Below are positions 1-19,040 of a stretch of 33,001 nt of DNA, in pieces. Within the stretch, counting starts at the first letter, position 1. Each line of letters starts with the position of its first letter. The DNA lies in NCBI GenBank assembly GCA_030602185.1, contig JAUWAE010000010.1:1-33001 (forward strand). The letters are read 5' to 3'. The notes below the pieces were generated by a model that did no database searches, had not been told where the DNA came from, and saw nothing but the letters and a program-made list of their open reading frames with translations. This stretch comes from Comamonadaceae bacterium (GTDB lineage: Bacteria; Pseudomonadota; Gammaproteobacteria; Burkholderiales; Burkholderiaceae_C). A program made the translations under genes and the position numbers.

Positions 1-118
1 TGGGACTAAACCGCTCGCGCGGTAGTCTCCGAGCATGGATTGTTGGTTGACGGCGTAGGCACTCATGGCGATGTTGTGAAGTGAGGCAATTGGCCTCGTT
101 CACGACAGGAGCAACGCC

Positions 119-994: not shown

Positions 995-1001
995 GCCCAC
1001 C

Positions 1002-2769: not shown

Positions 2770-3393
2770 TCAAATTTCCGTCTGCTCCGCGATTTCGAGA
2801 GCATCATCGAGTTCGATGCCGAGGTATCTCACGGTCGATTCGAGCTTCGAGTGTCCCAGCAGCAACTGCACGGCTCGCAGGTTTTTGGTACGGCGATAGA
2901 TCAGTGTCGCCTTTGTTCTCCGCATCGAATGTGTCCCGTAGTCGGCGCGATCCAGCCCGAGTTCGTCCACCCAGTGCCCAAGGATCCGCGCGTACTGCCG
3001 AGTCCCCAGGTGCGGAGACTCGTGCAACCTGCTTGGAAACAGGAAATCATCCGATTTCAACGCTGCCAGCTGGATCCATGCCTGCAGCGCGTCTCGGGTT
3101 GCTGCGGTGATTTCGAACTGCACCGGTCGCTGCGTTTTGTGTTGCATGACGATGGCTCGCGCGGCCAGTTGGTCCCCGTGACACACATCACGAACCTTGA
3201 GGGCCACGAGGTCGCAACCACGTAATTTGCTGTCGATGCCCAGATTGAAGAGCGCAAGCTCTCGGACGCGCCCTTGCATCTGTAGGTGCACCCGTAACGC
3301 CCATATCTCCTTCAGCTTGAAGGGTTCCTTTTGCCCCACTATCTTTCCCTTGTTCCAAGGCTCGTGGTGAACAGAACTGCTCGGAGTTTCCAT
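2770..3393 (-). CDS. Small tyrosine recombinase/integrase
   Basis: A 207-aa protein that is almost only a catalytic tyrosine-recombinase domain. Visible residues are R59 (SKLRGCDL), K86 (QHKTQRP), H155 and R158 (THSMRRTKA), H181 (LLGHSKLES) and Y190 (STVRYLG). The N-terminus is a short charged segment (NKGKIVGQKEPF) without a full core-binding domain. Short integrases of about 200 aa with exactly this layout are common on proteobacterial mobile elements, so it is probably intact rather than truncated. It is transcribed away from the B12 locus and towards the IS91 element. Base composition is lower in GC than the neighbouring cob genes. Which element it serves cannot be told from this window. 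Confidence 0.88.
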   Translation of the reverse strand: METPSSSVHHEPWNKGKIVGQKEPFKLKEIWALRVHLQMQGRVRELALFNLGIDSKLRGCDLVALKVRDVCHGDQLAARAIVMQHKTQRPVQFEITAATRDALQAWIQLAALKSDDFLFPSRLHESPHLGTRQYARILGHWVDELGLDRADYGTHSMRRTKATLIYRRTKNLRAVQLLLGHSKLESTVRYLGIELDDALEIAEQTEI

Positions 3394-3698
3394 GATGGTC
3401 TCCCATCGAGTTGAGGGGCCGACAGCTTGCGCCTGATACCTTCCTTCGTCTTGTTCTGGGTCAAGTCGTCATCTGAAACTATGTGACCGGGTGGGTGCGA
3501 ACGAGATCGAGACAGACCTGCAGAAGGGGACTCCCCACCCACTAAGCAAGCACTTCAGCTTCAGGAGAGCAGCATTGGAGTGCGGAGTGTCAGCCAAGAC
3601 GAGCCTCTCGCCTGTGCTCCATGCTCCGATGCACGAGCTCTAGGATCGCAACGTTGCCGCTCAAACGCTCCGAGCAATTTTTGGGGTATAGAATAAAA
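3394..3698. other. Intergenic region between recombinase and B12 riboswitch
   Basis: About 305 bp between the divergently oriented recombinase (minus) and the cobalamin leader (plus). Near its right edge TATAGAAT (3687-3694) is a plausible -10 element for the B12 transcript, 5 nt before the start of the riboswitch fold, but I find no good -35 at 16-18 bp. No coding region is supported. The composition is clearly less GC-rich than the cob operon. Confidence 0.45.
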
Positions 3699-3918
3699 GC
3701 TGTTGGTGCTCGCGATGCTGTTCAGGCATCGCAGTTCAACGGGAAGCAGGAGGGCGAGTCCCACACGGACGAACCTAACCTGCGCTGCCCCCGCAACGGT
3801 AAGCAGACGGGTGGTCCAAGGCATTGCCAAGGCCCCCATTTCTCAAAATTTCGCCACTGGGTCACACCGGGAAGGCTTTGGGAAACGTTCTGTCAGCCCG
3901 GATACCGGCCAACAAGGA
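3699..3918 (+). promoter_or_regulatory. Cobalamin (AdoCbl) riboswitch
   Basis: The stretch carries the conserved blocks of a B12 aptamer in order. These are an early stem around GCGATGCTG/CAGGCATCGC (about 3711-3731), the CTGCCCCCGCAACGGTA core (about 3785-3802), a GCCACTG block (about 3852-3858), a GGGAAGG block (about 3869-3875) and the B12 box GTCAGCCCGGATACCGGCC (about 3892-3910). It lies upstream of a cobalt permease and eleven B12 genes on the same strand, the usual context. Binding of adenosylcobalamin is expected to shut down expression of the operon. Outer boundaries are approximate. Confidence 0.93.
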
Positions 3919-3939
3919 GGCTGCGCCCCAAGCGCAGCC
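3919..3939 (+). promoter_or_regulatory. Hairpin directly after the B12 box (possible expression platform)
   Basis: GGCTGCGC (3919-3926) and GCGCAGCC (3932-3939) form a perfect 8-bp stem with a CCCAA loop, starting 9 nt beyond the B12 box. There is no U tract after it, so it is not a standard intrinsic terminator. It could be part of the switching platform or a Rho-related element. The next 218 nt up to the cbiM start contain no other feature I can name, an unusually long leader for a simple SD-sequestering switch. Confidence 0.4.
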
Positions 3940-4157
3940 GCATTACCCAAACACCGTCGGGGAAGGCGGTGAGGGGTCTTTGTCGGTGTCCTCATGTCGT
4001 CCCTTCGCATTGCTTTGCGAGTCTGTGCCAGCGCCTGCGCGTGCGCTCGCAGGGGGCTGTCCGTTCGCCGCTGGAACCTGTGCTCGCTTTCCCCTTGGGT
4101 CTTTGCCGACTTTTCAACCGCGTTGTGTCCAACGCACCCAACCCAAGGAGTCACTTC

Positions 4158-4835
4158 ATGCACATCGAACCAGGTCTTGTGGACGGGGCCAAGCTCGCAC
4201 TGAGCGTCGCCACAGCGGCCGCCTGTGGCGGCTACACGCTCAAGCTGTCGGCCGACATGCTCAAAAAGGACGGCGCGGCAGCCCTGCTGCTGCGGGCCGC
4301 GCTGGCCACGGCGCTGGTGTTCTGCTTTTTCGAGGTGCTGCCGCACCACCCGGTGGGCGTGTCCGAGGTGCACCTGATTCTGGGCACCACGCTGATGCTG
4401 CTGTTCGGCGCGGCGCCCGCGGCCATCGGGCTGGCGGGCGGCCTGCTGATCCAGGGCCTGTTCTTTGCACCTTTTGACCTGCCGCAGTACGGCATGAACG
4501 TGACCACGCTGCTGGTGCCGCTGTTCGCCACCGCGGCGCTGGCTCGCCGCGTGATTCCCGACCAGATGGCCTATGTGGATCTGCGCTACGGCCAGGCCCT
4601 GAAGCTGTCGCTGGCCTACCAGGGCGGCATCGTGCTGTGGGTGGGTTTCTGGGCGCTCTACGGGCGTGGCCTGGGCGCCGAGAACCTGGTGAGCATCGGC
4701 AGCTTCGGCGCCGCCTACATGAGCGTGGTGCTGGCCGAGCCGCTGATCGATCTGGCCGTGCTCGCACTGGCCAAGACGCTGCGTGGCCTGCAGGGCAGCG
4801 CGGTGGTGGAGCGCCGTCTGCACCAGGCCGCCTGA
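4158..4835 (+). CDS. cbiM: CbiM-family cobalt transporter permease (ECF S-component)
   Basis: A 225-aa polytopic membrane protein that should bind and import Co2+ for corrin synthesis. It starts with MHIEPG, matching the Met-His N-terminus that CbiM/NikM proteins use to coordinate the metal ion. Several hydrophobic segments follow (about 12-28, 45-62, 70-110, 115-130, 155-175, 190-215). The start at 4158 was chosen because AAGGAG lies at 4145-4150 and because it exposes this Met-His end; the frame is open further upstream through the riboswitch, which is not coding. CbiN, CbiQ and CbiO genes are not next to it, so it is either a stand-alone importer or uses components encoded elsewhere. Nickel instead of cobalt is possible, but the B12 riboswitch and downstream cob genes favour cobalt. 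Confidence 0.88.
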   Translation: MHIEPGLVDGAKLALSVATAAACGGYTLKLSADMLKKDGAAALLLRAALATALVFCFFEVLPHHPVGVSEVHLILGTTLMLLFGAAPAAIGLAGGLLIQGLFFAPFDLPQYGMNVTTLLVPLFATAALARRVIPDQMAYVDLRYGQALKLSLAYQGGIVLWVGFWALYGRGLGAENLVSIGSFGAAYMSVVLAEPLIDLAVLALAKTLRGLQGSAVVERRLHQAA

Positions 4836-4848
4836 CCGGGGGTGCACC

Positions 4849-5631
4849 ATGGGCCTCGGAACGGTCTGGTTTGTGGGGGCGGGTCCGGGCGATCCGGACC
4901 TGGTCACGGTCAAGGGGCGCGACCTGATCGCGCGCGCGGGGGCCATCCTGTTCGCTGGTTCGCTGGTGAACGAGGCGGCCACCCGCTGGGCACCGCCGGG
5001 TTGCCTCATCGCTGACAGCAAGGACATGACATTGGAGCAGATGTCGGCCTGGCTGATCGCAAACGCGGCGCGCTGCGACACCGTGGTGCGCCTGCAAACT
5101 GGCGACCCGGCCCTCTACGGCACGCTCATCGAACTGGTGCAGCCGCTGGACGCCGCGGGCGTGCCGGTGGCGGTGGTGCCGGGCGTGTCCTCGGCCATGG
5201 CCTCGGCGGCGGCGGCGATCGAGAGCTTCACCTTGCCCGAGGTCACGCAGACCACCATCTTCACGCGGGTGGAGGGCCGCACGCCCATGCCCGACGGCGA
5301 GGACCTCGCCGCGCTGGCGGCACACCGCACGACCTTGTGCATCTTTCTGTCCATCACGCTGCTGCACAAGGTGGAAGCCGGCCTGCGCCAGGCCGGCTGG
5401 TCCGACGACGCGCTGGTGCTGGTGGTGCACAAGGCCAGCTGGCCCGGCGAAGAGCGCATCGTGCGCGGCACGCTGGCCACCATCAAACAACAGTGCCGCG
5501 ACGCCGGCATCGTCAGCCAGGCCATGGTGATCGCCAGCCCCACGCTGGGCGCGCGCCACTGGCCCGAGCTGACCAGGTCCCGGCTCTACGACCCGGGCTT
5601 CACACACCGCTTCAGGAAAGCCACGACATGA
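4849..5631 (+). CDS. cobM: Precorrin-4 / cobalt-precorrin-4 C11-methyltransferase
   Basis: A 260-aa SAM-dependent tetrapyrrole methylase that methylates C11 of (cobalt-)precorrin-4 to give (cobalt-)precorrin-5A (CbiF in the cobalt-early pathway). The N-terminal glycine-rich motif VWFVGAGPGDPDLVTVKG (about 5-22), the GDPALYG motif (about 86-92) and VVPGVSSAMASAAA (about 109-122) are typical of the CobM/CbiF subfamily, as is the SLTLPEVTQT-like segment after it. It starts 13 bp after the cbiM stop and its stop overlaps the cbiX start as ATGA, indicating translational coupling. Length is normal for the family. With CbiD, CbiG and CbiX nearby, the substrate is probably the cobalt form. Confidence 0.95.
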   Translation: MGLGTVWFVGAGPGDPDLVTVKGRDLIARAGAILFAGSLVNEAATRWAPPGCLIADSKDMTLEQMSAWLIANAARCDTVVRLQTGDPALYGTLIELVQPLDAAGVPVAVVPGVSSAMASAAAAIESFTLPEVTQTTIFTRVEGRTPMPDGEDLAALAAHRTTLCIFLSITLLHKVEAGLRQAGWSDDALVLVVHKASWPGEERIVRGTLATIKQQCRDAGIVSQAMVIASPTLGARHWPELTRSRLYDPGFTHRFRKATT

Positions 5632-6518
5632 ACCACACCACGATCCTGCTGGTGGGCCACGGCTCGCGCGAGGACACCGGCAACCAGGAAATCCGCGACT
5701 TCGTCGACCAGTGGCGCGCCCGCCAACCGGCCTGGCGCATCGATGTCTGCTTCATCGAATTCGCCGCGCCCTCGCTGCACGATGGCCTGCTGGCCACGGC
5801 GCAGTCGTCGCGCCGCGTGCTGGTGCTGCCGCTGATCCTGAATGCCGCCGGCCATGCCAAGATGGAAATTCCCGAAGCCATCGAACACGCCCGCGAGCAC
5901 GCACCCAGCGTCGAGTTCCTCTACGGCCCGCACCTGAGCGCCTGCGACCCCATCCTCGCCATCCTCAAGCGCCGCCTGCGCCAGGCCATGGCCACGCTGG
6001 ACATGCCCGACCCCACCACCACGGGCGTGGTGCTGCTGGGCCGGGGTTCGTCGGACCGTGGCGCCAACGGCGACATGGCGAAGATGGCGCGCTGGCTGCA
6101 GGAAGAGAGCGACCACGAACTGGTGGACCTCGCCTTCACCGGCATCACCTGGCCGAGGCTGGAGCGCGTGGTGCAGCGCCAGGTGCTGATCGGCCTGCGC
6201 CAGATCGTGGTGCTGCCCTACTACCTCTACACCGGCACGCTGATGCAGCGCATCCACCGCCAGGTGGACCACCTGCGCGCGCAGTACCCGCAGGTGCGTT
6301 TTGCCTGCGGCACGCACTTCGGCTTCGAGAAGGAAATCTTCGGTCTGCTGGAACAGCGCGTGCACGACCTGCTGGCCGGCGTGCCCGACAGCCGGCTGCC
6401 CTGCGACGGCTGCAGCTACCGCGAGCTCGCACACGACATGGGCCATGGGCATTCCCACGAGCACACGCACGCCCCGCTGCATGTGCATCCCCACACCGCA
6501 CAGGTGCAACCTGCATGA
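5628..6518 (+). CDS. cbiX: Sirohydrochlorin cobaltochelatase, long form with Cys pair and His tail
   Basis: A 296-aa class II chelatase that inserts Co2+ into sirohydrochlorin, the entry step of the cobalt-early route. It has two tandem CbiX-like halves. The active-site histidines are seen only in the N-terminal half: H11 (LLVGHGSRE) and H76 (LNAAGHAKME). The second half has GRGSSD in place of GHGS. The C-terminus carries a CDGC pair (C259, C262) followed by a His-rich tail with nine His in 21 residues (269-289). Long CbiX of Bacillus megaterium houses a 4Fe-4S centre at an MXCXXC motif near a His-rich region, so a similar cluster is plausible here, although the Met is replaced by Leu-Pro. 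The gene overlaps cobM and cobH by ATGA. Confidence 0.95.
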   Translation: MNHTTILLVGHGSREDTGNQEIRDFVDQWRARQPAWRIDVCFIEFAAPSLHDGLLATAQSSRRVLVLPLILNAAGHAKMEIPEAIEHAREHAPSVEFLYGPHLSACDPILAILKRRLRQAMATLDMPDPTTTGVVLLGRGSSDRGANGDMAKMARWLQEESDHELVDLAFTGITWPRLERVVQRQVLIGLRQIVVLPYYLYTGTLMQRIHRQVDHLRAQYPQVRFACGTHFGFEKEIFGLLEQRVHDLLAGVPDSRLPCDGCSYRELAHDMGHGHSHEHTHAPLHVHPHTAQVQPA

Positions 6519-7195
6519 GCACGGTCAACACCGTCACCGAGCAGCTTACCGCCGCCGGCCAGGCCATCGAGCACGACAGTTTCGCCATCATCGACGCCGA
6601 GGCCGGCCCGCACGGCTACAGCGAATGCCAGTGGCCGATCGTGCGCCGCATGATCCACGCCAACGCCGACTTCGAGTTCAACGGCCTGACCGACTTCCAC
6701 CCCGACGCGGTGCGTGTGGGCGTGGCCGCGATGCTGCGCGGCGGCACCCCCGTGGTGGCCGATGTGGAGATGATCTGCTCGGGCCTGTCCCGGCCGCGCC
6801 TGGCGCACTTCGGCATGGCCACGCACCAGTTCATCAGCGATGCCGACGTGATCGCCCAGGCGCAGGCCGACAACACCACCCGCGCCGTGCAGGCCATGCG
6901 CAAGGCGCACCGCCTGGGCCTGCTGCAGGGCGCCATCGTCGGCATTGGCAACGCGCCCACCGCGCTGATCGAACTGGTGCGGCTGATCGTGGAGGACGGC
7001 GTGCGCCCCGCCCTGGTGGTCGGCATGCCGGTGGGCTTCGTGTCGGCCGCGGAGTCGAAAGACCTGATGGCGCAGATCACCGACGTGCCGTGGATCGTCA
7101 TCCGCGGTCGCAAGGGCGGCTCCACCCTGGTGGTGGCCGCCCTGCACGCGCTGCTGGCGCTGGCCGAGGCGCGGCAGCGCGCAGAAAGCGCCTGA
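6515..7195 (+). CDS. cobH: Precorrin-8X methylmutase
   Basis: A 226-aa enzyme (CobH/CbiC) that moves the C11 methyl to C12, giving hydrogenobyrinate or cobyrinate. The family histidine is visible in RRMIHANADFEF (H48), equivalent to the catalytic His43 of Pseudomonas denitrificans CobH by position and context. Other family stretches are the VADVEMICSGL segment (near 86-96), AIVGIGNAPTAL (near 146-157) and VGMPVGFVSAAESK (near 175-188). It starts at ATG 6515 in an ATGA overlap with cbiX, and the stop is 2 bp before cbiD. Length is normal. In this cluster the substrate is likely cobalt-precorrin-8. Confidence 0.95.
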   Translation: MSTVNTVTEQLTAAGQAIEHDSFAIIDAEAGPHGYSECQWPIVRRMIHANADFEFNGLTDFHPDAVRVGVAAMLRGGTPVVADVEMICSGLSRPRLAHFGMATHQFISDADVIAQAQADNTTRAVQAMRKAHRLGLLQGAIVGIGNAPTALIELVRLIVEDGVRPALVVGMPVGFVSAAESKDLMAQITDVPWIVIRGRKGGSTLVVAALHALLALAEARQRAESA

Positions 7196-7197
7196 CG

Positions 7198-8393
<1,196 letters not shown>

Positions 8394-8397
<4 letters not shown>

Positions 8398-9752
8398 ACG
8401 ATCTTCCCTCCCACGATCCCAACCGCTGCCGCGTCATAGGCGTGCTCGACGACGGCGTGGCCAGCCTCGGCGCCACCGCACTGGCCCACCTGCGCACGGC
8501 CGACGTGGTGATCGGCGGCGCGCGCACGCTGGCGCTGCTGCGGCACACGCTCAAGGCCGGCGCCGTCACCCACGACCTGACCGGCCAGCTGAAGGCGGTA
8601 CCCAGCTGGGTGCGCGCCGCGCGCGAGGCCCACCAGGCCTGCGTGGTGCTGGCCACCGGCGACCCGCTGTGCCACGGCATCGCGCCCTACCTGGCCCAGC
8701 ACCTGTGCCTGGAGGCGCTGGAGATCCTGCCCAACCTGTCCACGCTGCAACTGGCCTGTGCCCGCGTGGGCCTGGCCTGGCAGGACGCGCGCATCGTCTC
8801 CGTGCACGCCGCCGATGCCGGCGAGTGGCAGCGCGGCGCCCCGCCCACGCACGGCCTGTACGCGCTGGCCCAGGCCCTGCGCGCCGAGCAGCGCCTGCTG
8901 CTGCTGACCAGCCCGGCGAACAGCCCGGACCGCATCGCCCGCCTGCTGCTGGCCGAAGGCCTGGGCAGCGACTTCCACATGGCCGTGGCCGAACACCTGC
9001 TGCAGCCCGACGAGCGGGTGCATGCGCAACTCAGCCCGGCGGAGGCGGCCCGCATGCGCTTTGCCGAACCGAACGTGGTGCTGCTGTGGCGAGCAGGGCC
9101 GCGGCCGCAGCCGGTGCGCTTCGGCCTGGCCGACAGCGCCTTCGAGCAGCGCCGGCCCGAGAAGGGCCTGATCACCAAGCAGGAGGTGCGTGCCGTCAGC
9201 CTGGCGCGGCTGCAGCTGCGCGCCGACAGTGTGATCTGGGACATCGGCGCCGGCAGCGGCTCGGTGGGGCTGGAGGCCGCCCGCCTGTGCCCGCAGGGCC
9301 ATGTGTTCGCCATCGAGAAGAACGAGGCCGACCACGCCATCGCCCGGCGCAACCACGCGGCCTTCGGTGTCAGCAACTACAGCCTCCACCTGGGCAAGGC
9401 GCCCGACGGCCTGGACACCTGGCCCGACCCCGACGCGGTGTTCATCGGCGGCTCCGGCGGCGAGCTGGCCGGTCTGATCGCGCAGGTGTTGCGGCGCCTG
9501 CGGCCGCAGGGCCGGCTGGTGATGAACTTTGTGACGCTGGAGAACCTGGCCACCGCCACCCAGGCCCTGCAGCAGCTGAACGCCGACTGGGACGTGCTGC
9601 AGCTGCAGGCCGCGCGCAGCCGCCCCATCCTGCACATGCACCGCATGGCCGCCGAGAACCCGGTGTGGCTGGTGTGCGCCGGCGTGGGCCCCATGGGCCA
9701 CGGCGAACACGGGCCGGTGGTGGTGGCGGCGGAGGAGGCGGCGCATGGCTGA
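8394..9752 (+). CDS. cobL: Precorrin-6Y C5,15-methyltransferase (decarboxylating), CbiE-CbiT fusion
   Basis: A 452-aa bifunctional enzyme. The N-terminal CbiE-like methylase domain (about 10-230) contains VIGVLDDGVASLG and ATGDPLCHGI. The C-terminal CbiT-like Rossmann methyltransferase (about 250-430) contains the SAM-binding motif WDIGAGSGSVGLEA starting at W282. Together they methylate C5 and C15 and decarboxylate the C12 acetate side chain of (cobalt-)precorrin-7. Fused CobL/CbiET is common in proteobacteria and its length is normal. It begins in an ATGA overlap with cbiD and its last 8 bp overlap the cobI start, keeping the tight operon pattern. Confidence 0.95.
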
Positions 9753-10551
9753 CGCCACGCCTTCCACTGCCCCCCGCATGGGCGCCCTGCACGGCATCTC
9801 GCTCGGCCCGGGCGACCCCGGCCTGATCACCCGCGCTGCCTGGGCCGCGCTGGAGCGCCGCGACGCCATCTGGGTCTACCCGGTGCGCAGCGGCAAGACG
9901 CCCAGCTATGCGCTGGACATCGTGCAGCGCGCCGGGCTGCCGCTGCCCGAGACCCACACGCCGCTGCTGTTTCCCATGACCCACGACGGCGAGAAGCTGG
10001 CGCGCGCCTGGCTGAAGGCCGCGCAGACCGTGCTGCCCTGGCTGCAGGCCGGGCGCGACGTGCTGTTCCTGGTCGAGGGCGACGCCTCCACCTACGCCAC
10101 CTTCGGCCACCTGGCGCGCACCCGGCGCGGGCTGGACGAGCGGCTGCCGGTGCGCACCATCGCCGGAGTCAATTCGTTCACCGCGGCCTGTGCCGATGTG
10201 GGCGAACCGTTCGCCGAGCAGGACGACACCGTGGCCATCGTGCCGGCGGCCTACGGCGTGGGCGCGGTCGACCGGCTGCTGCCCGACTTCGACACCCTGG
10301 TGCTGATGAAGATCAAGCCGCTGATCGAGGACCTGCTGGACTGGCTGGAGGCGCGCGACCTGCTGGCCGGCGCGCACTTCGTCGAACGCGTTGGCGCGCT
10401 GGACGAGCGCCGGCTGTCCGGCCCCGAACTGCTCACGCTGCGCGGCAGCAAGGTCAACTACCTCTCGCTGCTGATCGTGAAAAACCCCCACCGCGTGCGC
10501 GGCGAGCGCATCAAGGGCTGCCTCAAGAAAACCCCGGAACCTGTTGCATGA
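9745..10551 (+). CDS. cobI: Precorrin-2 / cobalt-precorrin-2 C20-methyltransferase
   Basis: A 268-aa SAM-dependent methylase (CobI/CbiL) that methylates C20 of (cobalt-)precorrin-2. The N-terminal ISLGPGDPGLITRAAW (about 16-31) and the FLVEGDASTYATFGHL block (about 108-123) are typical of this subfamily. So is the spacing to the TIAGVNSFTAACADVGEPF segment (about 139-157). An AGGAGG-like ribosome site lies within the end of cobL about 10 nt before the ATG at 9745. The stop overlaps the next gene as ATGA. Length is slightly above the usual 230-245 aa owing to both termini. Confidence 0.94.
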   Translation: MADATPSTAPRMGALHGISLGPGDPGLITRAAWAALERRDAIWVYPVRSGKTPSYALDIVQRAGLPLPETHTPLLFPMTHDGEKLARAWLKAAQTVLPWLQAGRDVLFLVEGDASTYATFGHLARTRRGLDERLPVRTIAGVNSFTAACADVGEPFAEQDDTVAIVPAAYGVGAVDRLLPDFDTLVLMKIKPLIEDLLDWLEARDLLAGAHFVERVGALDERRLSGPELLTLRGSKVNYLSLLIVKNPHRVRGERIKGCLKKTPEPVA

Positions 10552-11330
10552 GCTCCGACCATCCCCCTTCGCTTCCCCGCACCGTCCTCGTCGCCATCAC
10601 CAAACACGGCGCCGCGCAGGCCTCCACGCTGGCTCGGCAGCTGCCGCAGGCGTCGCTCTGTGTCGCCGCCAAGTTCGCCGAGGCCTGCGCCGGCCTGCCA
10701 AACCCGCTGCAGACCTACGACGGCGCATTCAAGGACCAGATCGGCGAGCTGTTCGCGCAGTTCGACCAGATCGTGTTCTTCGTCTCGCTGGGCGCGGTGG
10801 TGCGCCTGATCGCGCCGCACCTGAAGAGCAAGGACGAGGACCCCGGCGTGCTGGTGGTGGACGACGCCGGCCAGTTCGCCATCCCGGTGCTCTCGGGCCA
10901 TGTGGGCGGCGCCAACGCCATGGCCGAGACCGTGGCCGCGCTGCTGGGCGCCACGGCGGTGCTCACCACCGCGTCGGACGTGGGCAAGACCATCCCGGTC
11001 GACATCCTGGGCCGTGAGCTGGGCTGGCAGGTTGAGGCGCCCAAACTCAACATCACCCGCGTCTCGGCCGCGGTGGTCAACGAGGAACCGGTGGCAGTGG
11101 TGCAGGAGGCCGGCAGCCCGCACTGGTGGACCCGCCCCACCCCGCTGCCGCCGAACATCCACCGCCACACGCGCCTGGAGGATGTGGATCTGGCCCGCTA
11201 CCGCGCGGTGCTGTGGATCACCCACCGCCCGGTGGACGACACGCTCTGGCAGACACTGCACGAGCGGCTGGTGGTGTACCGCCCGCCGCTGCCGGCGGGC
11301 AACGACGCCACCACCGGGGCCGCGGCATGA
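10548..11330 (+). CDS. cbiG: Cobalt-precorrin-5A hydrolase, N-terminal and central CbiG domains only
   Basis: A 260-aa protein matching the N-terminal and middle parts of CbiG, which opens the delta-lactone ring of cobalt-precorrin-5A and releases acetaldehyde. Signature blocks are SLGAVVRLIAPHLKSKDEDPGVLVVDD (about 77-103) and IPVLSGHVGGANAMAE (about 109-124). The LTTASDVGKTIPVDILG block (about 139-155) marks the central domain. The C-terminal CobE-like domain, present in full-length CbiG, is absent here and is found at the start of the next gene, which overlaps by ATGA. The pair therefore looks like a CbiG split into two chains. This gene strongly supports a cobalt-early pathway. Confidence 0.9.
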   Translation: MSSDHPPSLPRTVLVAITKHGAAQASTLARQLPQASLCVAAKFAEACAGLPNPLQTYDGAFKDQIGELFAQFDQIVFFVSLGAVVRLIAPHLKSKDEDPGVLVVDDAGQFAIPVLSGHVGGANAMAETVAALLGATAVLTTASDVGKTIPVDILGRELGWQVEAPKLNITRVSAAVVNEEPVAVVQEAGSPHWWTRPTPLPPNIHRHTRLEDVDLARYRAVLWITHRPVDDTLWQTLHERLVVYRPPLPAGNDATTGAAA

Positions 11331-12451
11331 AGGTGGCCCTGGGCATCGGCTGCGACCGCGGCACGCCGCTGGTCACGCTGGCGCGAGCGGTCGACGAAGC
11401 CCTGGCCGTGGCCGGCCTTCAACGCGGACAGGTGACCGGCGTGGGCAGCATCACGCTCAAGGCCGACGAACCCGCGCTGCTGGCGCTGGCCGCGCAGGCC
11501 GGCTGGCCGCTGCACTTCTACCCCGCCACCCAGCTGGCCGAGGTGGTGGTGCCCCACCCGTCGGAGACCGTGCGCCGACACACCGGCACGCCCTCGGTGT
11601 CCGAAGCCGCCGCCTTGCTCGCCGCCGGCACCACCGAGGCCTCAGCCCTGTGGGTGGAGAAGCACCGGCTGCGCGGCGGCGACGGGCGCAACGCCACGGT
11701 GTCGGTGGCGCGGGTGATGCCGCGCACAGCCATCCCGCCCTGTGTCGCCAACCCCGATCCGGCGCGCCGCTTCACGGCCTGCGAACGCGAAGCCGTGTTG
11801 TCGCTGATGCAGGTGCGGCGCGACATGCGCCACTTCACTGCCGGTGCGCAGGTCGCTGAAGACGTGCGGGCCCGCCTGCAATCGGCGCTGCTCGCCGCTC
11901 CTTCGGTGGGCCTGATGCAGCCGCTGCGGGTGCTGCGCATCACCGACCCTGTATTGCGCGACCGGCTGGCCGCCGCCGTGGACCAGGAGCGCATGCGCAC
12001 CGCGCAGGCCCTGGGGCCCCGTGCGGCCGAGTTCCTGGCACTGAAGGTGGAAGGCCTGCGCGAATGCGCCGAGCTGTGGGCGCTGGTGCTGGCGCCCGAC
12101 GACGGCACGGTGTTCGGTCGCCGCACGCTGGCGAGCGAAATGGCGTGGTGCTCGGCCGGCGCCGCCGTCCAGAACCTCTGGCTGGCCGCGCGCGCAGAGA
12201 ACCTCGGTCTCGGTTGGGTGTCGCTGTTCGAACCCGCTGACCTGCACAGGCTGCTGGCGCTGCCCGAAGGAGCGGCGCCACTGGGCCTGCTGTGCATCGG
12301 CCCGGTGGACCGCTTCTACGAAGCACCCATGCTCATCCAGCAACAGTGGCGCCAGGCGCGTCCGGCGCCGGCCGTGTTCACCGAGAACGCCTGGGACCCG
12401 TCCTGGACCACCGGCGGTTGCGCCACACCGGAACACCTGCCGCAGGGCTGA
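11327..12451 (+). CDS. CobE/CbiG C-terminal domain fused to BluB (5,6-dimethylbenzimidazole synthase)
   Basis: A 374-aa two-domain protein. Residues 1-135 match CobE / the CbiG C-terminal domain: KVALGIGCDRGTPL at the start, then VGSITLKADE and STVSVARV-type ends. Residues about 148-345 match BluB, the flavin-destructase of the nitroreductase fold that uses O2 and FMNH2 to make 5,6-dimethylbenzimidazole. Visible BluB blocks are RRDMRHF (D166), PSVGLMQPLRVLRI (192-205), LKVEGLRECAELWAL, and VQNLWLAARAENLGLGWVSLFEP (281-303; S299). D166 and S299 sit about as far apart as the catalytic D32 and S167 of Sinorhizobium BluB. No stop or frameshift separates the domains. It overlaps cbiG-N by ATGA and ends 40 bp before cobJ. 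Confidence 0.92.
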   Translation: MKVALGIGCDRGTPLVTLARAVDEALAVAGLQRGQVTGVGSITLKADEPALLALAAQAGWPLHFYPATQLAEVVVPHPSETVRRHTGTPSVSEAAALLAAGTTEASALWVEKHRLRGGDGRNATVSVARVMPRTAIPPCVANPDPARRFTACEREAVLSLMQVRRDMRHFTAGAQVAEDVRARLQSALLAAPSVGLMQPLRVLRITDPVLRDRLAAAVDQERMRTAQALGPRAAEFLALKVEGLRECAELWALVLAPDDGTVFGRRTLASEMAWCSAGAAVQNLWLAARAENLGLGWVSLFEPADLHRLLALPEGAAPLGLLCIGPVDRFYEAPMLIQQQWRQARPAPAVFTENAWDPSWTTGGCATPEHLPQG

Positions 12452-12491
12452 TCGCCTTGCCATTCAACGCTCGCTTGTCACAAGGAACGAA

Positions 12492-13520
12492 ATGACCACC
12501 GACACCTCTGTCACCCCCCCGCACGACGCGGGCACCACCGGCGCGGCCGGCCGCATCAGCCTGGTGGGCATCGGCCCCGGCCACACCGACCACATGACCG
12601 CGCGTGCGCGCGCCGCCATTGCCGAGGCCGATGTGGTGGTGGGCTATGTCACCTACATCAAGCTGGTGGCCGACCTGCTGGAGGGCAAGGAAGTCGTGCG
12701 CAAGGGCATGACCGAAGAGCTCGACCGCGCCGTGCATGCGCTGGAAGCGGCCCGCGCGGGCAAGAAAGTGGCCCTGATCTCGTCGGGCGACGCCGGCGTC
12801 TACGGCATGGCCGGCCCTACCTACGAGGTGCTGTTCCAGGCCGGCTGGACACCGGAGGACGACGTGGCGGTGGAGATCGTGCCCGGTGCGTCGGCTATCA
12901 ACGCCTGCGCCGCCCTGGTCGGTGCGCCCCTGACGCACGACTTCTGTTCCATCTCGCTGTCCGACCTGCTCACGCCCTGGCCGGTGATCGCCAGGCGCCT
13001 GGACGCGGCCGCCGCCGCCGACTTCGTGGTGGCGCTCTACAACCCCAAGAGCGGGCGCCGCACGCGCCAGATCGTCGAAGCGCAGCGCCTCTTCCTGCGC
13101 CACCGCCGCGCGGACACGCCGGTGGCGATCGTCAAGAGCGCCTACCGGCGCCGCCAGCACATCGTGCACACCACCCTGGACCAGATGGCCGAACAGGAGA
13201 TCGGCATGCTCAGCACCGTGCTGATCGGCAACAGCAGCACCTTCCTGCGCGTGGGGCTGATGGTCACCCCGCGTGGCTACGCCAACAAGTACGACGTGGA
13301 CCAGGGCTTCGAGACCCGCGAAGGCGAGAAGGCTGGCCGCTCGCTCTCCAGCGGTCTGCTGGGCTGGATCGAGGGGCTGCGGGCCGAGCAAGCGGCCGGC
13401 GCGGGCCTGGCCGAACTCGCCAGCCGACACCGCCTGCCCGCCGACTACATCGAACAGGTGCTGGCGGCACCCGACGAACACGCACCGGCCGAGGCCAGTA
13501 CCGAGGAGACCGAGGCATGA
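12492..13520 (+). CDS. cobJ: Precorrin-3B / cobalt-precorrin-3 C17-methyltransferase, C-terminally extended
   Basis: A 342-aa SAM-dependent methylase (CobJ/CbiH) that methylates C17 and contracts the ring. Family motifs are [19 protein letters not shown] (about 23-41), [15 protein letters not shown] (about 95-109), [23 protein letters not shown] (about 130-152), [15 protein letters not shown] and IVKSAYR. The methylase domain ends near 265 (MVTPRGY). About 75 further residues follow, including a short helical segment ([22 protein letters not shown]) and an acidic tail. The usual length is about 250 aa. The extension has no Cys, so it is not the Fe-S domain of B. megaterium CbiH60. An AAGGAA ribosome site lies at 12482-12487; the stop overlaps the ferredoxin start as ATGA. 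Confidence 0.95.
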
Positions 13521-13867
13521 GCAGCACGGAAAAACCCCGCATCGGCGACTACCGCCGGCACCTGCTGGTCTGCACCGGCACGCGCTGCACACAGGACGGC
13601 GCGGCGCAGGTGCTGTTCGACAGCCTGGGCGAGAAGTTCAAGGCCGCCGGGCTGAACGAAGGCGCGCTGCGCGTCAAGCGCAGCCGCGTGAGCTGTTTTG
13701 CTGCCTGCAAGGGTGGTCCCATCCTGTGCGTGCAGCCCGACGGCACCTGGTACCACGGCGTGACCCCCGACAACATGGAGCGCATCATCGGGCAGCACCT
13801 GGTGGGCGGACAGGTAGTCGCCGATCTGGTGTTCCACCAGGGACCGGGGGTCATCGATGGTGAGTGA
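13517..13867 (+). CDS. Thioredoxin-like [2Fe-2S] ferredoxin
   Basis: A 116-aa protein with the Cys pattern of thioredoxin-like (2Fe-2S) ferredoxins: C19-x4-C24 near the N-terminus and C60-x3-C64 ([10 protein letters not shown]) in the second half, plus an extra C71. It sits inside the B12 operon, overlapping cobJ by ATGA and cobA by 11 bp, so it is almost certainly co-expressed with corrin synthesis. The role is not certain. It could donate electrons to a reductive step, to the Fe-S centre suggested for CbiX, or for ring-contraction chemistry at CobJ. A small [2Fe-2S] protein, CbiW, occurs in the B. megaterium cob operon, and this may be a functional counterpart. Confidence 0.85.
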
Positions 13868-14603
13868 GACACCGGCTGCGGGCTCGGTCTGCATCGTTGG
13901 CGCCGGGCCGGGACCGGCCGACCTGATGACGCTGCGCGCGCTGAACCGGCTGAAACAGGCCCAAGTGGTGGTGCACGATCGGCTGATCGCCGAGGATGTG
14001 CTGGCGCTGATCCCGGCCGCCGCCCGGCGTGTGTACGTGGGCAAAGCGCTGGGACACCACGCGGTCCCGCAGGAAGAGATTCATGACCTGCTGGTGGGGC
14101 ATGCGCGCCAGGGCCTGCGCGTCGTTCGCCTCAAAGGTGGTGACCCCTATGTGTTCGGACGTGGTGGCGAGGAAGTGCTGGCGCTGCAGGCTGCCGGCAT
14201 TGCATTCGAGGTGGTGCCCGGTGTGACAGCCGCCAGCGGCTGCTCCGCCGCGGCTGGCATTCCGCTGACTCACCGCCAGCTTGCAGCCAGCTGCGTGTTT
14301 CTGCCCGGCCATCTGGCGGACGACCAGGCCAGTCACGACTGGCAAGCCCTGGCGGGTGCGGGGCAGACCCGGGTGTTCTACATGGGCGTTCAGCGTCTGG
14401 CGCAGATTGCCCAGGCCTTGATCGCCCATGGGCTGCCGCCCGACACACCCGCGGCCATCGTCCAGGACGGTGCCCGACCCACACAGTCCGTTCTGGCCCA
14501 CCCATTGCGCCGTTTGGTCGAGATCGCTCCCCCCTACGGTCCTCGACCGGGCTTGCTGATCATTGGCGAAACGGTGCGACTGAGCCCGTCATTTGAAGAA
14601 TGA
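13857..14603 (+). CDS. cobA: Uroporphyrinogen-III C-methyltransferase (SUMT)
   Basis: A 248-aa stand-alone SUMT that methylates uroporphyrinogen III at C2 and C7 to precorrin-2, the branch-point reaction to B12 and siroheme. Clear motifs are [22 protein letters not shown] (about 11-32), [25 protein letters not shown] (about 88-105) and [22 protein letters not shown] (about 119-140). There is no CysG-type dehydrogenase/ferrochelatase domain, so the precorrin-2 dehydrogenase needed to make sirohydrochlorin for CbiX must be encoded elsewhere. It overlaps the ferredoxin gene by 11 bp and is the last gene of the operon in this window. The coding composition is somewhat less GC-rich than the cob genes before it. 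Confidence 0.95.
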
Positions 14604-14868
14604 TGCGAGTGTCTGAGCCGACGGCAAGGGCGCTGACTCTCCTTGGCGACTGATTTTCGATTTTCGGTTGTGAAAACGCCCGTTCAACAGAGGCTCTGAC
14701 AAATTCATTCGCACCCAGGGCATTGAGTGCTTCCATCATTCTTGAATGGTCTTCCGGCCCATCCGATTTGAAAACCCCGTCCTTGAGATTGATCTCGTAG
14801 TTCGACCTGTTCCAGTTCCAGCCCGTCATACACCACCCGCATTGGATTCCAATGCAGTCATTGTGCAT
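14560..14868 (-). CDS. Doubtful hypothetical reading frame, possibly a gene remnant
   Basis: A 102-codon frame that I do not recognise. The middle (GWNWNRSNYEINLKDGVFKSDGPEDHSRMMEALNALGANEFVRASVERAF) has protein-like composition. The frame stays open upstream of ATG 14868 to a stop at 14947-14949, and that part (SKISADFDPSISFRLGTV) also looks protein-like but has no ATG, GTG or TTG. The 3' end runs 44 bp into the complement of cobA, which is unlikely for an intact gene. It may be a gene cut at both ends when the integrase-bearing segment joined the cob operon. An ATG at 14832 is an alternative start. Confidence 0.3.
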   Translation of the reverse strand: MHNDCIGIQCGWCMTGWNWNRSNYEINLKDGVFKSDGPEDHSRMMEALNALGANEFVRASVERAFSQPKIENQSPRRVSALAVGSDTRIILQMTGSVAPFRQ

Positions 14869-14962
14869 GACTGTTCCCAGTCTGAACGAGATAGAGGGGT
14901 CGAAATCGGCGGATATTTTGGACCTGCTGGTCAGCAGCCCAGCAAGTCAACTTGGAACGTGC

Positions 14963-16441
14963 TCAGGCTGTCTTGGCCCCAGAGCGATTGATCAAAACTT
15001 GGCGCCGCGCAGCACGCTGTCGCAATGCTTCTGCCGCCTGTAGGTGACTCAAGTGGTGATCGAAATACGACTTGAACTCCGGATCGGGGAGCTTGAGCAG
15101 CGCCGGTTCCAGCCCTTCGTGCTTGATCACTTGGATCGTCTCGGCTTGGACCGCGAGATTGATTGAGCGCACATACTTGCCATGTACACCGGAAACCGCC
15201 GTGGTTGTGTGGCCCGACACCCGGTGAATGGCCGCTGCGTTGGCACCGCGGTTGTGCAGGTCAGTGATCACTGTCGAGCGGATCGAATGAAAGGACTTGT
15301 TTGCTCCGTTTTTCAGGCGGCGCTTCACCCACACTGACCAACTTCGTCCAGCCATTTTTTCGGACTTCAGTTCGGGGCGATGGGGAAACAAGCGATCGCA
15401 GCCACGGGCCTTGAGTGCTTCAACGTACTGCCAGAACCCAAGGTCGAGCAAGTCGCTGTGCAAGGGCACGGTCCTTCGGCCACCGCGGGTCTTGGCGTCG
15501 GGGATCAGCATGACTTTGTAGCCTTCGATTTCTACGAAATCGTCGAGCTTGCGATGCGCTATTTCAGACAAGCGCGCGCCGGAGTACATGGCTACCAGCG
15601 GGGTCCAGTACCAGTCCGGGGCTTTCATTTCCTGGCGATAGTCCTCCGAAAATAACAGCTTGATGTCGTCACTGGTGAACTCTTCGTACGGCTTTTCGTG
15701 CCGTCGAATCTCGCTTTTGCCAGCCATTGCCACAGCCATCGGATTTTCACCCCGGTAGCGGCCCGTCTGGATAGCCCAAGCAAAGAGCCGGTGAATGTAC
15801 CCCCTGCGCTTTTCGAGCCGAGCCAGGCTGGTCGCCCGGCCCTGATGCTTGCCGTTCTCGCGTGAGTACTCCGCAGGCCGCCAACGCGTGTTGATGTCGA
15901 CAGACGTGACGGATTGAATCTCTGCGTTGTTGAAAAACGCCACGAACTCAGCAAAGATCGAACGCTTTTCATTGATCGTCGTGGCGCCTGGCTTCAAGCG
16001 GCGCGCTTCTTCGACAAGATGCATCTCGATCACCTCGGCCAGTCGAATCCCTGCAGACGGCAGTCCTTGCGGGCTACCCGTTATCGGCCTTGCGACAGAA
16101 GGATCGGTTTGCGGTTCCACCACAGCCGCTAGAGCAAGCTCTGGAGAACGATTAAACGCCGGTGCACCCAAGGAACCACACTTGGCTGTAACAGACGCGG
16201 CTGCAATCTGATCCTGCAAGCGGGAGCTCTGTGCACCCGCGTATTCCGCTTCCCGCCGAATGAGTGACAGCGAAAACTCCAGCGCGGCAATTTTGGCCGC
16301 GGCTGGATCTTTCGTGAGGAGGGAGCGTTGAACGACTTTGCGCCGTCCTGCACCGTCAAGTACTGGGTACCTGAGGTAGAAGACCCCGTGCCTGTTGGCA
16401 CCGAGACGGGGGACTTTGATCTTCGTTGCTTTGAGCTTCAT
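14963..16441 (-). CDS. Tyrosine-type site-specific integrase adjacent to tRNA-His
   Basis: A 492-aa integrase. The N-terminal part (1-60) resembles the DUF6538-type arm domain of island integrases (PRLGANRHGVFYLRYPV). A core-binding region follows at about 135-230, then the catalytic domain. Active-site residues seen are R290 (YSGARLSEI), H385 and R388 (SFHSIRST), H411 (VSGHTTT) and Y423 (HGKYVRS). I chose the ATG at 16441 because the family fold begins there; the frame continues 10 codons upstream. The gene starts 73 bp from the 3' end of tRNA-His and is transcribed away from it, the usual arrangement for elements integrated at tRNA genes. Its GC content is lower than both flanks, a sign of transfer. 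Confidence 0.92.
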   Translation of the reverse strand: MKLKATKIKVPRLGANRHGVFYLRYPVLDGAGRRKVVQRSLLTKDPAAAKIAALEFSLSLIRREAEYAGAQSSRLQDQIAAASVTAKCGSLGAPAFNRSPELALAAVVEPQTDPSVARPITGSPQGLPSAGIRLAEVIEMHLVEEARRLKPGATTINEKRSIFAEFVAFFNNAEIQSVTSVDINTRWRPAEYSRENGKHQGRATSLARLEKRRGYIHRLFAWAIQTGRYRGENPMAVAMAGKSEIRRHEKPYEEFTSDDIKLLFSEDYRQEMKAPDWYWTPLVAMYSGARLSEIAHRKLDDFVEIEGYKVMLIPDAKTRGGRRTVPLHSDLLDLGFWQYVEALKARGCDRLFPHRPELKSEKMAGRSWSVWVKRRLKNGANKSFHSIRSTVITDLHNRGANAAAIHRVSGHTTTAVSGVHGKYVRSINLAVQAETIQVIKHEGLEPALLKLPDPEFKSYFDHHLSHLQAAEALRQRAARRQVLINRSGAKTA

Positions 16442-16514
16442 GCGTGACACCAAGTAGTGACACCGAAGCACAGAAAAAGCAAAAAACTATTTGAAAATCA
16501 AAGACTTGCAAACT

Positions 16515-16540
16515 TGGGGTGGCTGATGGGACTCGAACCC
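16515..16540. other. Probable attachment site in the 3' part of tRNA-His
   Basis: The 3' T-arm and acceptor of tRNA-His end 73 bp from the start of a tyrosine integrase that points away. Integrases of this kind use tRNA 3' ends as attB and leave a repeat of that end at the far border. By reading I found no second copy of the GATGGGACTCGAACC block in the window, so the other border is either outside or diverged. Exact core limits are unknown. Confidence 0.5.
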
Positions 16541-16591
16541 ACGACAACAGGAATCACAATCCTGGACTCTACCAACTGAGCTACAGCCACC
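16515..16591 (-). tRNA. tRNA-His(GTG)
   Basis: On the minus strand the sequence folds as a cloverleaf. The acceptor arm is GTGGCTG/CAGCCAC with the extra 5' G (-1) opposite C73 typical of tRNA-His. The D-arm region is AGCTCAGTTGGTAGAGT. The anticodon stem is CAGGA/TCCTG around the loop TTGTGAT (anticodon GTG), and the T arm contains GTGGGTTCGAATCCCAT. The 3' CCA is encoded (16515-16517). It lies downstream of ppiD and its 3' end faces the integrase gene, so its 3' half is the probable attachment site. Confidence 0.97.
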
Positions 16592-16601
16592 GTAGCCTCA
16601 A

Positions 16602-16607
16602 ATTATA
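16602..16607 (-). promoter_or_regulatory. -10 element of the tRNA-His promoter
   Basis: A perfect TATAAT on the minus strand lies 10 nt upstream of the tRNA-His 5' end, in the 43-bp gap after ppiD. I do not see a good -35 at standard spacing, which would fall at the end of ppiD. It suggests that tRNA-His is transcribed separately from ppiD. Confidence 0.5.
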
Positions 16608-16634
16608 GCGCGATAGAAGCTGGTTTTGGGGTTT

Positions 16635-18554
16635 TCAGCCTTCCACGCCGGATTTTTTGTTGAGCAGTTTGACGTTGTAGCGCGCGCGCAAGCTCTGGAG
16701 GTAGGCTTGCGTCTCGGCCTGCGACCACAGCTTGGCCAGCTGCTCCCGCTCTTGCTGAGCACGGGCTGCATCCACGGCACCGCGCTCGATCACGCGGTTG
16801 ACACGGACCACCGCATACCCGTCGGCCCCCAGGTCCACCCCGGTCCAGGCCGCCGTAGTGGTGCCGGCGGGGGCACTCAGGGCGGCGGTGATCAACGCCG
16901 GCGGCAAACCCTGCGCGTCTTCGCGGGACACCACAACCGCCGGGCGCAACGAGGCCGTTGCAGGCGCCGCCTGCCAGGCCGCCAGCCGGGCAACACCTTC
17001 TTCGCGCGCGGCCGCTTCGGCGCGCTGCTGGCGCAGCCGTTCGCGCACGGCGCTTGCCACCTCATCGAAAGGCCGCACAGCCGCCGGGCGATGTTCCAGT
17101 ACACGCACCGACACCAGCTGGTTGGCACCCAGTTCGATCGCTTCGCTGTTGCGCCGCTGCCGCAGCGAGTCCGCCGAGAACAGGGCGGTCAACACCCTCG
17201 GCTGGGCCAACGGGGCATCGGCCGATGCGTCGGCCGGCCCAGTACGCAGCACGGCTGACGCGCGGCGCGGGGTCAAGCCCAGTTTCTCGGCCGCAGGGCC
17301 GAAACTGTCGGCATGCTCGTACACCAGGTTGGTGAACTCCTCGGCCACTTCGGCGTACCGGCGCTGCGCCATCTGCTTGGACAGTTCGGCCGTGAGCTTC
17401 GCCCGCACCGCCTCGAAGGGCTCGGGCGTTGGCCGACGGATGTCGGTCACCTGGATGATGTGGAAGCCGAATTCGGTTTCCACCACGGGGGAAATCTCAC
17501 CCTTGGCCAACGCGTAGGCCGCATCCTCGAACGGCTTGACCATGGCGCCGCGGCCAAAGTAATCGAGGTCGCCGCCTTGCGCCGCCGAACCCGGGTCTTG
17601 CGAACGGGTGCGCGCGAGTTCGGCAAACCGATCGGGCGACTGACGCAACTGGGCCAGCAGCGCATCGGCTTGCGCACGCACCTTGCCCTTGTCGTCGGCG
17701 CTCGCACCAGGGTCCACCGTCAGCAAGATGTGTCGGGCCCGCCGCTGCTCCTGCTGGGCCAGGGCCGCGTTGTTCTGCTCGTAATAAGAGCGCAACTCGC
17801 TGTCGCTCGGCCGCACCGTGCGCGCAACCGCCTCGAGGTCGAGTACTAGGTACTCCACATCCACCTGCTCAGGGGTCTGGAAGGACTGGGCGTTGTCGTC
17901 GTAAAAACGGCGCACCTCGTCGTCGGACACCGTGATCGCGGCCTTGAAATCGGCCGGACGGAACAGGCTCCACTGGATCTCACGCCGTTCGAAGAACGCC
18001 TGCAACGCGGTGCGGGCGGCGGCCTCGGTCACAAAACCCGAGCCTTCGACACCCTGCAGCACCTGGCGCCGGGCCAAGTCGGCCCGCACCGAGGCTTCGA
18101 ACATCTCCGGGGTCATGCCTTGTGCGCGCAACAACTGCTGGTAGCGCTCCACATCCAGGCTGCCATCTGGCTTGCGCAGGGCAGCGATCGTGGGGTCCTG
18201 GGTCAGTTCGCGGGCCAAACGCTGATCGGTGGCGAGGAACAGGCCATCCTGCGCCGCCAGGGCCAGCACGCGCTCATTGACCAGCCGCTCCAGCGTGGCA
18301 TCGCGACTGGCCGCGTTGTCCAGCAGGCTGCGGTCCACCCCGGGCAGCGACGCCGCTAGGCGGTCCACCTCGTTGCGGTGCGCCGCATCCCACTCCTGGC
18401 GGGTGATCTCGACCTTGCCCACCTTGGCCACGACGTCCTTGTTCTCGCGGAAACTGCTGTAGCCCTCGATGCCAAACAGCACGAACGACGGGATGATGAG
18501 CAACATCAGCAGCCCCATGAGGAACTTGATGTTGTTACGGAAAAAGTCAAACAT
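16635..18554 (-). CDS. ppiD: Periplasmic folding chaperone PpiD (parvulin-type PPIase)
   Basis: A 639-aa inner-membrane-anchored chaperone that helps fold proteins leaving the Sec translocon. The N-terminus MFDFFRNNIKFLMGLLMLLIIPSFVLFGIEGY holds one transmembrane segment (about 10-30). A SurA_N-like region follows (about 35-190). A parvulin domain lies at about 270-365 (RRARHILLTV, GSAAQGGDLDYFGRGAMVKPFEDAAYAL, FGFHIIQVTD), and a second helical region closes the protein. Length matches the PpiD/SurA_N group of betaproteobacteria (about 620-640 aa). The start ATG at 18554 directly precedes the membrane anchor. A hairpin at 18577-18598 separates it from tRNA-Val. Confidence 0.95.
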   Translation of the reverse strand: MFDFFRNNIKFLMGLLMLLIIPSFVLFGIEGYSSFRENKDVVAKVGKVEITRQEWDAAHRNEVDRLAASLPGVDRSLLDNAASRDATLERLVNERVLALAAQDGLFLATDQRLARELTQDPTIAALRKPDGSLDVERYQQLLRAQGMTPEMFEASVRADLARRQVLQGVEGSGFVTEAAARTALQAFFERREIQWSLFRPADFKAAITVSDDEVRRFYDDNAQSFQTPEQVDVEYLVLDLEAVARTVRPSDSELRSYYEQNNAALAQQEQRRARHILLTVDPGASADDKGKVRAQADALLAQLRQSPDRFAELARTRSQDPGSAAQGGDLDYFGRGAMVKPFEDAAYALAKGEISPVVETEFGFHIIQVTDIRRPTPEPFEAVRAKLTAELSKQMAQRRYAEVAEEFTNLVYEHADSFGPAAEKLGLTPRRASAVLRTGPADASADAPLAQPRVLTALFSADSLRQRRNSEAIELGANQLVSVRVLEHRPAAVRPFDEVASAVRERLRQQRAEAAAREEGVARLAAWQAAPATASLRPAVVVSREDAQGLPPALITAALSAPAGTTTAAWTGVDLGADGYAVVRVNRVIERGAVDAARAQQEREQLAKLWSQAETQAYLQSLRARYNVKLLNKKSGVEG

Positions 18555-18576
18555 GAGCGCGCTGCCTGAAACAGAA

Positions 18577-18598
18577 AAGGCGAACCCGTGTTCGCCTT
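18577..18598 (-). terminator. Intrinsic terminator after tRNA-Val
   Basis: On the minus strand AAGGCGAA, a 6-nt loop CACGGG and TTCGCCTT form an 8-bp stem followed by TTCTGTTTC, starting 13 nt past the tRNA-Val 3' end. It fits a Rho-independent terminator for the tRNA transcript just upstream of ppiD. Confidence 0.6.
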
Positions 18599-18611
18599 CT
18601 GTGTGGGAGGG

Positions 18612-18687
18612 TGGTGGGTGCTAACGGGATCGAACCGCTGACCTACGCCTTGTAAGGGCGCCGCTCTACCAGCTGAGCTAAGCACCC
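18612..18687 (-). tRNA. tRNA-Val(TAC)
   Basis: A 76-nt minus-strand cloverleaf. The acceptor is GGGTGCT/AGCACCC, the D arm is AGCTCAGCTGGTAGAGC, the anticodon loop CTTACAA (anticodon TAC) sits on GCGCC/GGCGT, and the T arm is CAGCGGTTCGATCCCGTTAG. The 3' CCA is encoded. It lies 20 bp downstream of hup and 57 bp upstream of ppiD, both on the same strand. Confidence 0.97.
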
Positions 18688-18707
18688 CTCCGGAACCTGT
18701 CTACCTT

Positions 18708-18980
18708 TCACATGATAGCGTCTTTCAGCCCTTTGCCAGGCCGAAACTTCGGAATTTTAGCGGCTTCGATGCGCACTTCCTCGCCAGTCTTGGGATTGCG
18801 CCCGGTGCGTGCGGCGCGCTGGGCCACCGCGAACGAGCCGAACCCCACCAGCGACACCGTACCGCCCTCCTTCAACGTCGCCACGATGGCTTCCAGCGTC
18901 GCATCCAGCGCTCGGGTGGCCGAGGCTTTGGAGATGTCCGCACGCTGGGCAATGTGTTCAACGAGGTCGGCTTTGTTCAT
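18708..18980 (-). CDS. hup: HU-family DNA-binding protein
   Basis: A 90-aa histone-like protein that bends and compacts DNA as a dimer. It begins [27 protein letters not shown] and contains the family signature [24 protein letters not shown] (about 46-69) with the beta-arm Pro. The end [15 protein letters not shown] is typical of HU rather than IHF. Length is exactly that of HU. It is followed on the same strand by tRNA-Val and ppiD, an order often seen around ppiD in proteobacteria (hup next to ppiD). Confidence 0.96.
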
Positions 18981-19040
18981 GGTTGGGCAATCTGTGAGAT
19001 GTGGTGGGTTACCGCCAAACGGGGGATTCTAGTCGGTCGC

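Follow-up and report, generated by a model that had tools for sequence, protein, structure and literature searches.

A CbiG_C-BluB fusion gene in a mobile vitamin B12 cluster of a Comamonadaceae bacterium

Organization of the locus

The DNA analysed here (the window, a stretch of 33,001 nucleotides) carries a cobalamin biosynthesis operon that is headed by a cobalamin riboswitch and comprises the genes listed in Table 1. Within this operon, an open frame on the forward strand (11327-12451) reads, in the translation of the window, through 374 codons without a stop and is then closed by a stop codon; its product joins CbiG_C to BluB. The TGA of the preceding cbiG gene overlaps the ATG of the fusion as ATGA. 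The N-terminal and central domains of CbiG are missing from the fusion chain and lie on this preceding gene, where PF11760 and PF11761 both match, so that the upstream cbiG-N gene postulated by a sequence-only reading of this DNA is indeed present. Judged by its domain content, the fusion chain is therefore one part of a split CbiG and not a CbiG alone. As the fused CbiG_C is the sole CbiG_C match in the window's genome, it must be the domain that completes CbiG, if CbiG works. Downstream of the fusion, CobJ/CbiH (12492-13520) continues for about 78 residues past its methylase domain.

Integrase genes at 119-994, 2770-3393 and 14963-16471 flank the B12 block (2542-14654), whose DNA recurs at about 92-95% identity in Acidovorax and Hydrogenophaga, on chromosomes as well as on plasmids. 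IS91-type transposase genes also flank it, and positions 2705-14654 of the window are 94.6% identical to plasmid pACNA2.1; the block is a mobile vitamin B12 cluster. A tRNA-His gene is found at 16515-16590, and among the best 20 of 28 direct-repeat families of window positions 1-19000 there was no attachment repeat at this tRNA.

Table 1. Features of the cobalamin operon in the window, parts of the fused protein, and two CbiG_C fusions of other loci
Feature	Position	Strand	Basis
Cobalamin riboswitch, operon head	3687..3927	+	RF00174, 67.6 bits, gathering 31.5
CbiM-like cobalt uptake gene (start not fixed)	4131..4835	+	PF01891; annotated ortholog in L078
cobM/cbiF (start approximate)	4846..5631	+	TP_methylase; ortholog named cobM
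cbiX chelatase	5628..6518	+	PF01903 in overlapping ORF 5337-6518
cbiC (start approximate)	6521..7195	+	PF02570 in ORF 5711-7195
cbiD (start approximate)	7201..8397	+	PF01888, TIGR00312
cbiE-cbiT fusion gene (start approximate)	8391..9752	+	TIGR02467, TIGR02469
cobI/cbiL	9745..10551	+	TIGR01467
cbiG N-terminal and central domains, separate gene	10548..11330	+	PF11760, PF11761
CbiG_C-BluB fusion gene, 374 aa plus stop	11327..12451	+	open frame; domains
CbiG_C domain, residues 4-128	11336..11710	+	PF01890, 115 bits
Linker, residues 132-147	11720..11767	+	pLDDT under 50
BluB domain, residues 149-348	11771..12370	+	TIGR02476, 183 bits
cobJ/cbiH, C-terminal extension after about residue 264	12492..13520	+	TIGR01466 on 22-264 of 342 aa
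Thioredoxin-like 2Fe-2S ferredoxin	13517..13867	+	PF01257
cobA uroporphyrinogen-III methyltransferase	13857..14603	+	TIGR01469
CbiG_C-CobJ/CbiH	L061:9522-10925	+	in-frame
CbiG_C-CobJ/CbiH	L072:9169-10572	-	in-frame

Domains of the fused protein

The two domains assigned from the sequence alone are both recovered above cut-off by Pfam and NCBIfam models. In particular, the Pfam CbiG_C model exceeds its gathering cut-off of 27 bits by far on residues 4-128, which confirms the identity of the N-terminal half, while the Pfam Nitroreductase model scores 73.1 bits on residues 164-325 (cut-off 23.5) and TIGR02476, the NCBIfam equivalog model for BluB, the 5,6-dimethylbenzimidazole (DMB) synthase, exceeds its cut-off of 150 bits on residues 149-348. 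These are the only Pfam domains of the chain, in which no CobT domain (PF02277) was found. The best PDB sequence matches are CobE 2w6k for residues 5-103 (E 9.1e-8) and BluB 2isj for residues 146-356 (E 2.7e-33). CobE (2w6k, 2w6l) and Sinorhizobium meliloti BluB (2isj) share the folds of the two halves and, in the case of BluB, the catalytic residues, but they are separate proteins.

Specifically, D166 and S299 of the fusion, already singled out in the earlier reading for a spacing that fits BluB, are matched in the 2isj chain by residues 35 and 170 and thus stand where BluB catalytic residues are expected. We take residues 35 and 170 to be D32 and S167 of native BluB, offset by a tag of three residues; catalytic roles of Asp32 and Ser167 in the S. 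meliloti enzyme were reportedly described by Taga in 2007. Equivalents of both residues are retained in all 58 aligned BluB rows.

An AlphaFold2 model of the fusion, of moderate confidence (mean pLDDT 69.3, pTM 0.50), resembles CobE 2w6l with a Z of 15.9 and BluB 2isj with a Z of 21.5 (rmsd 1.9 over 179 aligned residues, an alignment that begins at model residue 72 and whose first few residues belong to the CbiG_C half). Residues 132-147, which lie beyond the usual end of most unfused CbiG_C proteins, have a pLDDT below 50 in the model and probably form a flexible linker. A separate internal start for BluB was considered and is not supported: the ATG found at residue 131 in the window and in most relatives is replaced by GAG in one of them (L044). 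No clear ribosome-binding site, judged by eye, precedes this ATG.

Distribution of the fusion

Ten loci from named genomes (L036-L045), belonging to Acidovorax, Extensimonas, Hydrogenophaga and two MAGs, carry the fusion at 86-93% identity, one of the ten records bearing an UNVERIFIED_CONTAM label; the protein has 374 residues in nine of them and 383 in the tenth. The fusion also resides on three plasmids of Acidovorax carolinensis and on pVF1 of Vitreoscilla filiformis. It was found in three of 200 genomes in a survey of the family, where 17 of 20 genomes with CbiG_C lack it, and in eight of 399 genomes (six of 141 genera) in a larger draw. Since the matches of G1059, G1047 and G1108 coincide in contig position with those of G204, G208 and G209, they were counted once, giving 15 distinct fusion genomes (G000, which is the window's own, G200-G209, G180, G015, G1082 and G1147). 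Across the order (399 genomes surveyed) and the class (369), no match other than that of the window itself spanned both domains. A candidate of the order survey, G335 (residues 60-357), was discarded as it has a nitroreductase domain only, and in the class survey the match of G965 covers residues 90-363 and contains stops.

The window's assembly is fragmented into 333 contigs, and two genes joined by a sequencing or assembly error could in principle give such a frame. The identical junction, however, recurs in independent genomes and in complete plasmids, which refutes this explanation and leaves it practically no probability; a mis-assembly or a frameshift, the latter named in the earlier reading as a possible refutation, is excluded on the same grounds. 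The fusion is real and inherited in a small group of bacteria.

RefSeq already contains this fusion, set in the same operon, as WP_024814081.1 (A. carolinensis plasmids) and WP_089418440.1 (V. filiformis pVF1), both named bluB or 5,6-dimethylbenzimidazole synthase only, with no mention of the CbiG_C half. The open-access literature searched yielded no published account of a CbiG_C-BluB fusion. In kind, the protein belongs to the known bifunctional cobalamin fusions. Because automatic annotation names the protein BluB alone, the CbiG step appears incomplete in carrier genomes, and pathway predictions that equate one gene with one step will err for them.

Other fusions and the order of genes

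The precedent for this kind of protein is BluB/CobT2 of Propionibacterium freudenreichii, a biochemically characterised bifunctional fusion that channels its product (PMC4657239). As in our case, BluB accounts for half of a bifunctional cobalamin protein, but CobT2 directly uses the product of BluB and CbiG_C does not. Among genomes related to that of the window, Methylibium petroleiphilum PM1 has BluB C-terminal on the corrin enzyme CobA (WP_011831813.1), encoded in a syntenic cluster. It is likewise C-terminal on corrin or siroheme enzymes in other families of the class, with other partners: CysG in L091 (G771) and CobJ followed by a ChuX/HutX-like domain in L092 (G943). In G409, BluB is joined to CobT. 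CbiG_C, in turn, forms an in-frame fusion with CobJ/CbiH in G013 and G166, two of the 17 unfused loci L058-L074. The idea that the pairing of CbiG and BluB is special does not withstand these cases.

These BluB partners emerged from a scan of long open frames ahead of BluB (10 cases plus 9 cases), in which a partner was present for CbiG_C (L075), CobA (L009), CysG (L091), CobJ-HutX-like (L092) and, downstream, CobT (L097). The other 14 frames were rejected as fusions, since they hold a nitroreductase domain only and are kept open by high G+C. In detail, the frame at L091:934-3042 (forward strand, 703 aa) contains the whole of CysG, the siroheme synthase, and BluB, and an equally long open frame is present in G878; the single 704-aa frame at L092:979-3090 (reverse strand) contains CobJ/CbiH with the ChuX/HutX-like (haem utilisation) domain and then BluB. 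At L093:524-2077 (forward strand), CobJ/CbiH is accompanied by a HutX-like domain whose match is weak and below the gathering score.

The BluB tree requires at least four changes to account for the fused state. The best trees show no single CbiG_C-BluB clade, the forks concerned being weak, and a single origin of CbiG_C-BluB is not rejected (p-AU 0.20 and 0.28). As for gene order, at least nine other genomes of the class have bluB and cbiG_C on one strand at a distance of 1.4-3.6 kb, and in the Gallionellaceae cluster L048 bluB directly follows cbiG_C-cbiH. The fusions seem to track operon neighbours: fusion with whatever gene is adjacent fits best, and it requires no particular tie between opening the ring and making the lower ligand. 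This proximity, together with the fact that BluB/CobT2 functions in P. freudenreichii, an aerotolerant anaerobe (PMC4657239), also makes the argument from conflicting oxygen needs of the two halves, put forward in the sequence-only reading, a weak one.

Given the domain and fold matches, the retained catalytic residues, the recurrence of the fusion and the gene order, together with the selection and the occurrence of BluB and CobT described below, we consider it probable that the protein is a bifunctional fusion of operon neighbours, which would complete the split CbiG and synthesise DMB, with joint expression as its benefit. Judging from the families, the CbiG_C half would supply the missing end of the split CbiG and act with the upstream CbiG-N/mid protein, opening the ring of cobalt-precorrin-5A, while the BluB half would convert FMNH2 and O2 to DMB, to be activated by CobT. 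A short flexible linker would connect the two halves. BluB is a dimer, and the fusion may accordingly assemble as a BluB dimer bearing two CbiG_C domains. The likely benefit would be a single riboswitch-controlled product expressed at 1:1; hand-over of an intermediate would not be the benefit, because the two reactions share none. The other fusions of BluB and of CbiG_C seen in related genomes are what one would expect if fusions follow gene order, and since they seem to follow operon neighbours, joint expression is favoured over channelling. The earlier interpretation is supported in part. Co-regulation, one of the two roles it suggested for the fusion, is already supplied by the operon layout and the riboswitch at the operon head.

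A different possibility, to which we assign a low probability, is that tethering BluB to CbiG_C puts DMB synthesis at a corrin-making complex, as a scaffold or metabolon. That BluB is joined to several corrin or siroheme enzymes and that 15 genomes retain the fusion with CbiG_C would agree with it; nevertheless, the partners vary and have no intermediate in common with BluB, the fusions match gene order, and most CbiG_C genomes of the 200-genome survey do without the fusion. The varied BluB fusions represent a natural experiment in which co-expression alone can be set against physical closeness to corrin synthesis as what favours a union of the lower-ligand step with the ring pathway.

State of the BluB half

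Both halves of the fusion are under purifying selection. Comparison of the window with six close relatives gives dN/dS values of 0.19-0.25 (BluB half) and 0.05-0.22 (CbiG_C); for BluB, comparison with the distant L075 and L076 gives 0.39-0.46, with synonymous changes near saturation. No other BluB match above 150 bits was found in 10 of the 15 fusion genomes, although a second BluB may be missed in drafts; these ten include the one-contig genome G015 and Vitreoscilla (G180). A second BluB is present in the remaining five (G000, G200, G201, G203 and G206). L036, L038 and L039 share an identical BluB half; in the genome of L038 it is the only BluB found, whereas the genomes of L036 and L039 have a second. 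CobT was found in 17 of 17 genomes tested, including 13 of 13 fusion genomes (G000, G200-G209, G180 and G015); in the window's genome it is on another contig than the fusion. The standalone second BluB of this genome, on contig C261, outscores the fused half with 257 bits and adjoins genes resembling cobO (named by eye) and cbiB. The fused BluB is not a recent copy of it, the two being 48% identical and placed in different parts of the tree.

Against TIGR02476, BluB halves of the window type score 175-185 bits and are the lowest-scoring full-length group, while other matches over the cut-off reach 202-281 bits, with the exception of a partial match in G012 (178 bits). Their branch is long (0.54, or 0.33-0.34 once another fusion breaks it). 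At 71 positions at least 90% of 41 other rows agree on the residue, and the window type departs from it at seven of these. Single fused sequences change similar numbers (seven of 74 in Vitreoscilla, seven of 71 in G015), six standalone rows zero to two, CobA-BluB one, and the distant S. meliloti BluB 19 of 76. Of the 39 positions invariant in 41 other BluB rows, the window type differs at two; L185Q and W200L fall at positions invariant in 43 other rows. In addition, 38 of the 39 rows that are not CbiG_C fusions have the histidine His189, in place of which four of the five fused lineages carry Leu, Met, Ala or Gln. From these comparisons, we read the changes in the BluB half as drift or adaptation of an enzyme that presumably still works, with a real chance that it has acquired another function.

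Such a function could be a flavin-dependent job in the corrin pathway other than DMB synthesis, as for CbiY of Bacillus megaterium, a BluB homologue in a corrin operon which was purified with bound FMN and had no DMB synthase activity (PMC3573010). The long branch, the altered conserved residues and the loss of His189 in most fused lineages point in this direction. The equivalog score over cut-off and the two retained catalytic residues point against it, as do the 36% identity of the fused half to S. meliloti BluB, compared with an identity of up to 20% to BluBs given for CbiY (PMC3573010), the many carriers in which no other BluB was found and the presence of CobT in every carrier tested. On balance, we regard a different flavin job as unlikely. 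Equally doubtful, in our opinion, is that BluB was joined independently to CbiG_C, CobA, CysG and CobJ-HutX-like because having the lower base made at the corrin line matters, with the altered window-type half depending on this setting or having changed its chemistry. Were the BluB half to prove inactive or altered, finding bluB in these bacteria would be no guide to whether they make cobalamin.

The cobalt-precorrin-6A reductase step

A specific version of the other flavin job would have the BluB half act as the cobalt-precorrin-6A reductase CbiJ, as no CbiJ/CobK (PF02571) was found in the window's genome. This candidate was rejected: G118, G182 and G077 have CbiG_C and no BluB (judged at E 1e-20), and they lack CbiJ as well, so that BluB does not explain the gap. 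PF02571 occurs in nine of 65 genomes and in none of the 34 of these with CbiG_C. An enzyme not yet recognised seems to serve as the reductase in this branch of the pathway. Counting the window's genome, CbiJ/CobK is missing in 35 of 35 CbiG_C genomes examined.
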